From Spirochaetales bacterium (GTDB taxonomy: Bacteria > Spirochaetota > Spirochaetia > DSM-27196 > Salinispiraceae), in contig JAACWS010000013.1 in the NCBI GenBank assembly GCA_009991955.1, forward strand, positions 1 through 64,000: DNA of 64,000 nt. Direction: 5' to 3'. The first letter of the stretch is position 1. The number at the start of each line of letters is the position of its first letter. The notes beneath the pieces were generated by a model. The model was not told the origin of the DNA. It ran no database searches and saw only the letters and a program-made list of their open reading frames with translations. Below, in pieces: positions 1 to 58,710 of the stretch. Position numbers and translations under genes: made by a program.

Positions 1-73
1 CCCCTCAACCTACTACCGGCTCCCCAATCCCGTCAGATTGAGGATAACCCCTTCCGCCCAACCACGTAAATCA

Positions 74-172
74 TACCATCTCTAAAATCTATTATTCTGG
101 CCAAGTTGGTCATTGCACCGCAATGACTTAAGAGCGAGGGATATCCTAGAAACATGGTTTTTAGAGGTCCCC
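74..172 (+). repeat. Dispersed structured repeat, copy 1
   Basis: This is a copy of the ~97-bp intergenic family. The right end TTTTAGAGGTCCCC (159-172) is canonical. The left end keeps CTCTAAAA (80-87) but has lost the GGGG tip, so the closing stem is shortened. The central hairpin GTCATTG-CACCG-CAATGAC at about 109-127 is intact and followed by the conserved TTAAG. I see no good -10 box just before the left end, so this may be a decaying copy. Confidence 0.85.
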
Positions 173-238: not shown

Positions 239-338
239 GGGCACCTCTAACCTCTAGGGTTCTGGCTCCGTTGGTTATTGCAACCCAATAGCTTAAGATC
301 GCGGGGATAGTAAGAACAAAAGTTTTTGGCCGTGTCCG
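239..338 (+). repeat. Dispersed structured repeat, copy 2 (deoA leader)
   Basis: A diverged copy lying between a candidate promoter and the deoA ribosome-binding site, so it would form most of the deoA 5' leader. The closing stem changed on both arms: GGGCAC at the left pairs with GTGTCC at the right, and the fourth pair is C-G where other copies have G-C. The central hairpin reads GTTATTG/CAATAGC instead of GTCATTG/CAATGAC, so one C-G pair became T-A and one T-A became a G-T wobble. These paired changes argue that the fold is kept. Confidence 0.75.
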
Positions 339-9562: not shown

Positions 9563-9626
9563 GGGGACCTCCATAAGCTTGTTTTCTGGCTAAGTTGCTC
9601 GAAAATAGAGGTTTATGGAGGTCTCC
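9563..9626 (+). repeat. Internally deleted copy of the dispersed repeat
   Basis: The ends GGGGACCTCCATAA and TTATGGAGGTCTCC are complementary over 14 bp with one G-T, and the left inner part (TTTTCTGGCTAAGTTG) matches the family. The central GTCATTG hairpin and following TTAAG are missing, leaving 64 bp. Relative to the canonical ends, two base pairs have changed on both arms (T-A to C-G and A-T to T-A), so pairing rather than sequence is kept. It lies in the 93-bp gap between two TPR genes. Confidence 0.8.
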
Positions 9627-25073: not shown

Positions 25074-25172
25074 GGGGACCTCTAAAATCAGTTATTCCGG
25101 CCAAGTTGGTCATTGCACCGCAATGACTTAAGAATGGGGGATACCCTAGAAAAAAGGTTTTTAGAGGTCCCC
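25074..25172 (+). repeat. Dispersed structured repeat, best-preserved copy
   Basis: The ends GGGGACCTCTAAAA (25074-25087) and TTTTAGAGGTCCCC (25159-25172) are perfectly complementary over 14 bp. The centre holds GTCATTG-CACCG-CAATGAC followed by TTAAG. The copy fills the gap between two minus-strand genes. On the minus strand its last arm provides the AGAGGT ribosome-binding site of the 25068 gene, so closing the element would hide that site. No clear target duplication is visible. Confidence 0.92.
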
Positions 25173-26530: not shown

Positions 26531-26541
26531 TTCTCTGGTGA

Positions 26542-26638
26542 GGGACCTCTAAAAACTTTGATTCTAGTCTATCCCGCGGTCATAAGTCATTGCGGTGCAA
26601 TGACCAGCTCGGCCAGCAAAATAGATTTGAGAGGTCCA
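26542..26638 (-). repeat. Dispersed structured repeat, inverted copy
   Basis: The reverse complement aligns with the family: CCTCT-rich ends, GTCATTG-CACCG-CAATGAC with CTTA after it, and GTTTTTAGAGGTCCC at the far end. It lies between the divergent HD gene and the membrane protein gene at 26722. On the plus strand TATTCT (26529-26534) is exactly 7 nt before the element, the same geometry seen at fabV, but no -35 box is evident. Confidence 0.88.
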
Positions 26639-26721
26639 CTGGCGAATCATTTTTTGCTATAGTATAGTTCATCGGGCGATTGGTAGAAAAACCTAGATAT
26701 CCCAAAAGGAAAACACGTGTT

Positions 26722-31306: not shown

Positions 31307-31323
31307 GGGGACCTCCTAAAATC
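31307..31323 (+). repeat. Solo end of the dispersed repeat
   Basis: GGGGACCTCCTAAAATC matches the canonical left end GGGGACCTCTAAAATC with one extra C. No right end or central hairpin follows. The tRNA promoter -35 box begins at 31325, 1 nt beyond it. Confidence 0.65.
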
Positions 31324-33237: not shown

Positions 33238-33333
33238 GGGCACCTCCTGAAATTCCTTCTTCTGTGAGGTCGGCCCGTATAAGTCATTGGGGTACAATGG
33301 TCGAACCACACAAAAATGCTTCAGAGGTCTCCC
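33238..33333 (-). repeat. Dispersed structured repeat, diverged inverted copy
   Basis: The reverse complement aligns at both ends (GGGAGACCTCTGAA ... TTCAGGAGGTGCCC) and in the centre (CATTG-TACCC-CAATGACTTA). The outer arms carry a paired A-T to G-C change, and single bulges are tolerated. It fills the gap between nrdR and the EAL gene, and the nrdR stop codon lies at its edge. Confidence 0.78.
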
Positions 33334-58610: not shown

Positions 58611-58710
58611 AGGGAACCTCTACAATCTAGTTTTCGGGCCTTGATGGTCATTGCACCGCAATGACTTAAGAGCGCGGGCCTATTTGGAACAAAGGTTTTT
58701 AGAGGCCCCC
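58611..58710 (+). repeat. Dispersed structured repeat, fabV leader copy
   Basis: The ends GGGAACCTCTACAA and TTTTTAGAGGCCCCC pair except for small mismatches, and the central GTCATTG-CACCG-CAATGAC-TTAAG is unchanged. It starts at the predicted transcription start and ends 16 nt before the AGGAGG site of fabV. The transcript would therefore open with this structure. Confidence 0.9.

Follow-up and report, generated by a model that had tools for sequence, protein, structure and literature searches.

A dispersed intergenic repeat of a Spirochaetales bacterium, very probably a MITE with IS5-family ends

The dispersed repeat analysed here is very probably a MITE that uses IS5-family ends and has no enzyme of its own; a few odd details aside, it is in most respects an ordinary mobile element. 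What looked like a new structured-RNA candidate becomes an IS5-type MITE, and it offers a worked case of paired substitutions, which are usually read as RNA structure, in transposon ends without RNA-type selection. For transposon biologists, two details would be of minor interest, namely the switch in duplication length between subfamilies and the MITE end as an apparent fixed IS110-type target.

Copies and target duplications

The draft genome of the host (2.43 Mb, 90 contigs, 93% complete) contains at least 79 copies or fragments of the repeat, 64 of them near full length; this count from a profile search is a lower bound, as the search covered the stretches around BLAST, end-pattern, and covariance-model hits. 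With terminal inverted repeats of about 14 bp, a length of only about 99 bp, no coding capacity, and its 64 near full-length copies, the repeat has the features of a MITE. The end motif GGGGACCTCTANAA, allowing at most one mismatch, was found 66 times in the host genome and 5 times for the reversed control, and it occurred at most 6 times per genome across 40 related genomes. The abundance of the repeat is far above chance. BLASTN gave no match for the repeat in 40 relatives, of which one belongs to the same genus (57% complete) and the others to the same family or order, and the central-hairpin pattern had no matches among 84,980 named genomes. Nested and deleted copies both occur. In one copy on contig C40 (L054:3475-3707), the central hairpin is interrupted by about 130 bp, and the insert itself looks partly palindromic.

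Of the 79 copies or fragments, 8 lie in the window, which is the whole 64,000-nucleotide stretch of DNA that was analysed (positions 1-64000); about 2 would be expected from the mean density. The seven copies and one solo end listed in the initial annotation were all confirmed, with boundaries shifted by at most 1-2 bases (Table 1). By inspection, all copies lie between the main ORFs, and their intergenic placement was thus confirmed as well.

Table 1. Copies of the MITE and related features in the window
Feature	Position	Strand	Observation
IS110-family insertion sequence end, fused to MITE terminal repeat	1..79		
MITE copy, subfamily A	74..172	+	First 6 bases replaced by IS110-family insertion sequence end
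MITE copy, subfamily A	239..337	+	Flanks GCTTC / GTTTC, 4/5 matching; corrected boundary (337, not 338)
MITE copy, internal deletion	9563..9626	+	Both ends present, central hairpin gone
MITE copy, subfamily A	25074..25172	+	Sequence identical to copy C68:30715-30813, which has the duplication GTTTA/GTTTA
MITE copy, subfamily A	26541..26639	-	Covariance-model hit; flanks CGCCA / CACCA, 4/5 matching; corrected boundaries
Solo terminal repeat GGGGACCTCCTAAAATC	31307..31323	+	No partner end recognised
Diverged MITE copy	33238..33332 (or 33333)	-	Put in subfamily B by end motif; corrected boundary
MITE copy, subfamily A	58612..58710	+	Flanks GGGTA / GGAGA, 3/5 matching; corrected boundary

The copies are transposed DNA, since target duplications flank them. 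When 35 copies were compared at a flank length of 5, 107 of 175 bases matched (shuffle mean 48.5, maximum 71 in 1000 shuffles), and length 5 alone stood out. With 61 copies, 162 of 305 bases matched at this length (null 81, maximum 106). The target-site duplications that mark a MITE are present in two subfamilies and differ in length between them. Subfamily A, the main one, has 5-bp duplications (137 of 225 bases matching, null 61, 0 of 2000 shuffles). Subfamily B, which ends in ...CTGGAATC and has the typical pair GGGCACCTCTGGAATC...GTTTCCAGAGGTGCCC, has 4-bp duplications (30 of 64 bases matching, null 18, 1 of 2000 shuffles) and no excess at 5 bp; it comprises only 16 copies, and A and B were told apart by a simple rule based on end motifs, which leaves the boundary between them soft.

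IS5-family ends and autonomous relatives

The MITE ends, GGGnACCTCTnnAA, recur on an Aliarcobacter plasmid and in other genomes of the class, where they bound autonomous IS5-family elements; in the host genome such an end accompanies a truncated transposase. In one genome of the same class (G050), the end pattern occurs 56 times, as against 10 times for the reversed control, and two of the end pairs bound 1239-bp insertion sequences with a 338-aa transposase and the duplications TTAA and TAGA. The transposase belongs to the IS5 family (NCBIfam NF033581, E = 4.7e-82; Pfam DDE_Tnp_1 and DUF772). A 1210-bp element in a genome of the same order (G036) has its transposase divided between frames, and the Aliarcobacter faecis plasmid NZ_CP053838 carries an IS5-family element with the ends GGGTACCTCTAAAAAC / GGGAACCTCTAAAAAC and the duplication ATAT. 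In the host genome, the truncated IS5 transposase is at a contig end (C62:91-333) and is 57% identical over 81 residues; the end GGGCACCTCTCAAAAC lies about 90 bp upstream of it. The host draft, which is 93% complete, yielded no intact autonomous element that carries the MITE ends. Weak hits of the covariance model in other genomes were different elements with the ends of the MITE, except for one hit in G003, which was without these ends. Many end pairs in G050 surround independent elements of about 150 bp (L148-L159), and most of these have 4-bp duplications.

The IS5_4-type insertion sequences (NF033581; ends GGGnACCTCTAAAAAC; G050, G036, and NZ_CP053838) have the same terminal repeat as the MITE. 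Base 4 of the end varies among them, and at the left end of the MITE, too, this base varies most. Unlike the MITE, they are about 1.2 kb long, contain a transposase gene, and have 4-bp duplications where these were seen. They are probably the source of the MITE's transposase, and an IS5-type transposase is predicted to move the MITE copies in trans. Against this explanation stand the mismatch between the 4-bp duplications of the autonomous relatives and the 5-bp duplications of subfamily A, and the lack of an intact autonomous element among the sequences of the draft genome.

The initial annotation had seen in the repeat more than transposase-binding ends and had known of no named family of this form. 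What argues against the first view is that the copies have target duplications and that autonomous IS5-family elements share their ends; the second view gives way to an IS5-type MITE. As for the ordinary MITE that it had named as the alternative, both duplications and autonomous elements were found, but the copies are diverged and not identical.

The Porphyromonas gingivalis MITEs BrickBuilt, MITE239, MITE464/PgRS, and MITE700 have ends matching the IS5 family, differing interiors, and duplications of variable length (PMC4596501). Like the MITE described here, they are non-coding and dispersed, with IS5-type ends and interiors that match nothing known (PMC4596501). In contrast, the MITE of this study has other end sequences. 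It measures about 99 bp, has a conserved palindrome at its centre, is present in 64 near full-length copies, and falls into two subfamilies, with duplications of 4 bp in one and 5 bp in the other.

Conservation, paired changes, and the RNA fold

Internal branches of the tree were taken as a stand-in for spreading lineages. On these branches, the ends had 1.14 and the centre 0.76 changes per site, as against 2.76 in the rest of the repeat (Fisher p ~4e-5 for the ends and ~3e-5 for the centre). On terminal branches, the values were 6.5 for the ends, 5.2 for the centre, and 6.6 for the rest. Since ends and centre are conserved on internal branches and hardly on terminal ones, most of the constraint falls in the spreading phase, and decay in resident copies is almost even, as it would be in a MITE. 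That the centre is as strongly conserved as the ends counts against the MITE explanation, since simple MITEs need no such centre. There is some chance, though a small one, that spread of the element requires the central palindrome GTCATTGC-ACC-GCAATGAC-TTAAG as a second cis-acting site, which was kept while the outer part switched between 4-bp and 5-bp lineages; the core would then be served by two transposases.

It seems rather unlikely that the interior palindrome of the MITE has been co-opted in some resident copies as a protein-binding site or an mRNA-processing hairpin. Conservation is highest in the centre (35-59), and in end-found copies its terminal-branch rate was 0.045, compared with 0.074-0.084 elsewhere outside the ends. 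In the full set, however, the terminal rate of the centre was nearly even with the rest (0.080 versus 0.100). Moreover, terminal branches contain some spreading-lineage time, and the initial searches were biased to copies with a conserved centre. Weak selection may act on the centre of resident copies.

Paired substitutions do exist, as the initial annotation had reported. Among 48 copies, 12 double changes preserved a Watson-Crick pair, compared with 1.7 (maximum 6) in 300 randomisations in which the substitutions of each column were put at random on the tree. With 65 copies and a null that additionally preserves the load of each branch, the terminal stem had 14 paired changes (null 1.9; reached in 0 of 200), while the central hairpin had 2 (null 0.64; reached in 21 of 200). 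The closing stem thus exceeds the phylogenetic null, and the hairpin does not. In a counting test, the named structure had more covariation than shuffles and slid versions. In an R-scape-like G-test, no individual pair was significant (best E = 3.3), the top-scoring column pairs were subfamily-diagnostic columns, and an excess at the level of the helix was confined to the terminal stem. RNAalifold on the alignment returned the central hairpin only, with a covariation term near nil.

The initial annotation had also argued for a kept fold, in RNA or as DNA palindromes; a kept RNA fold is not supported. If an RNA were under selection, G-U would be favoured on one strand. Changes to G-U (53) were about as frequent as changes to A-C (45, p = 0.48), and 214 changes broke a pair, compared with 16 that were compensated. 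Mutations on terminal branches destabilised both strands alike, about as much as random mutations. The RNA fold is unsupported because pairs are mostly broken, G-U is not preferred, and the damage on terminal branches is near random. A conserved structured RNA, in which the fold of a transcribed + strand would work, for example, as a processing site or riboregulator, is therefore very improbable. The paired changes of the closing stem agree with it, and the consensus + strand folds at -47 kcal/mol, compared with -39.4 for the reverse, but the better + strand fold is that of a single ancestral sequence and no independent evidence. The non-significant covariation of the central hairpin also argues against such an RNA, as do the target duplications, which mark mobile copies. 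An Rfam scan of the window found tRNA only, with no family match for the repeat.

For a MITE, the arms of the terminal stem would be kept matched in spreading lineages, and paired changes would result. This matching may come about because both ends must be recognised at transposition, or because template switching copies one arm of the palindrome onto the other. Resident copies would then decay almost neutrally. One proposal in the literature derives compensatory changes in hairpins from template switching during replication (PMC8794818).

Other elements at the MITE ends

A zinc-ribbon transposase gene (L042, C35:1-300, and L046, end of C89) has an internal-deletion junction that bears the MITE end GGGGACCTCTATAAT, in two copies. 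The insertion sequence of C35/C89 was considered as an autonomous partner of the MITE and rejected: the copy on C28 is without GGGGACCTCTATAAT, so the form on C35/C89 derives from another element by deletion.

Tn3-family elements start with GGGG, as the repeat does. Although 5-bp duplications are also found in Tn3-derived miniature elements, or TIMEs (PMC4133298), an origin of the repeat as a TIME is in effect refuted because its ends match those on IS5-family elements, they are about 14 bp long and not 38 bp as in TIMEs, and the Tn3 transposase (PF01526) on which TIMEs depend is absent from the genome.

At six sites, an insertion sequence end is fused at one fixed point to CTCTnnAA of the terminal repeat (the junction falls between GGGGAC and CTCT). 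Five of the junctions are in recognisable MITE copies and one is in a short end-like stretch. They are located at positions 1-79 of the window, at the ends of contigs C60, C33, C1, and C69, and at C68:31400-31484 (L017, L034, L004, L079, L045). Judging from these junctions, it looks as if an IS110-family element uses the terminal repeat of the MITE as its target. IS110/IS1111-type elements are known to target dispersed repeats, REPs among them (PMC1525189, PMC11187229). In both cases a dispersed intergenic palindrome serves as a fixed target, but here the apparent target is no REP; it is a MITE end, and the MITE has target duplications. The junction on C68 has retained an IS110-family reading frame (Pfam Transposase_20), and the start of the window lies inside another such insertion sequence.
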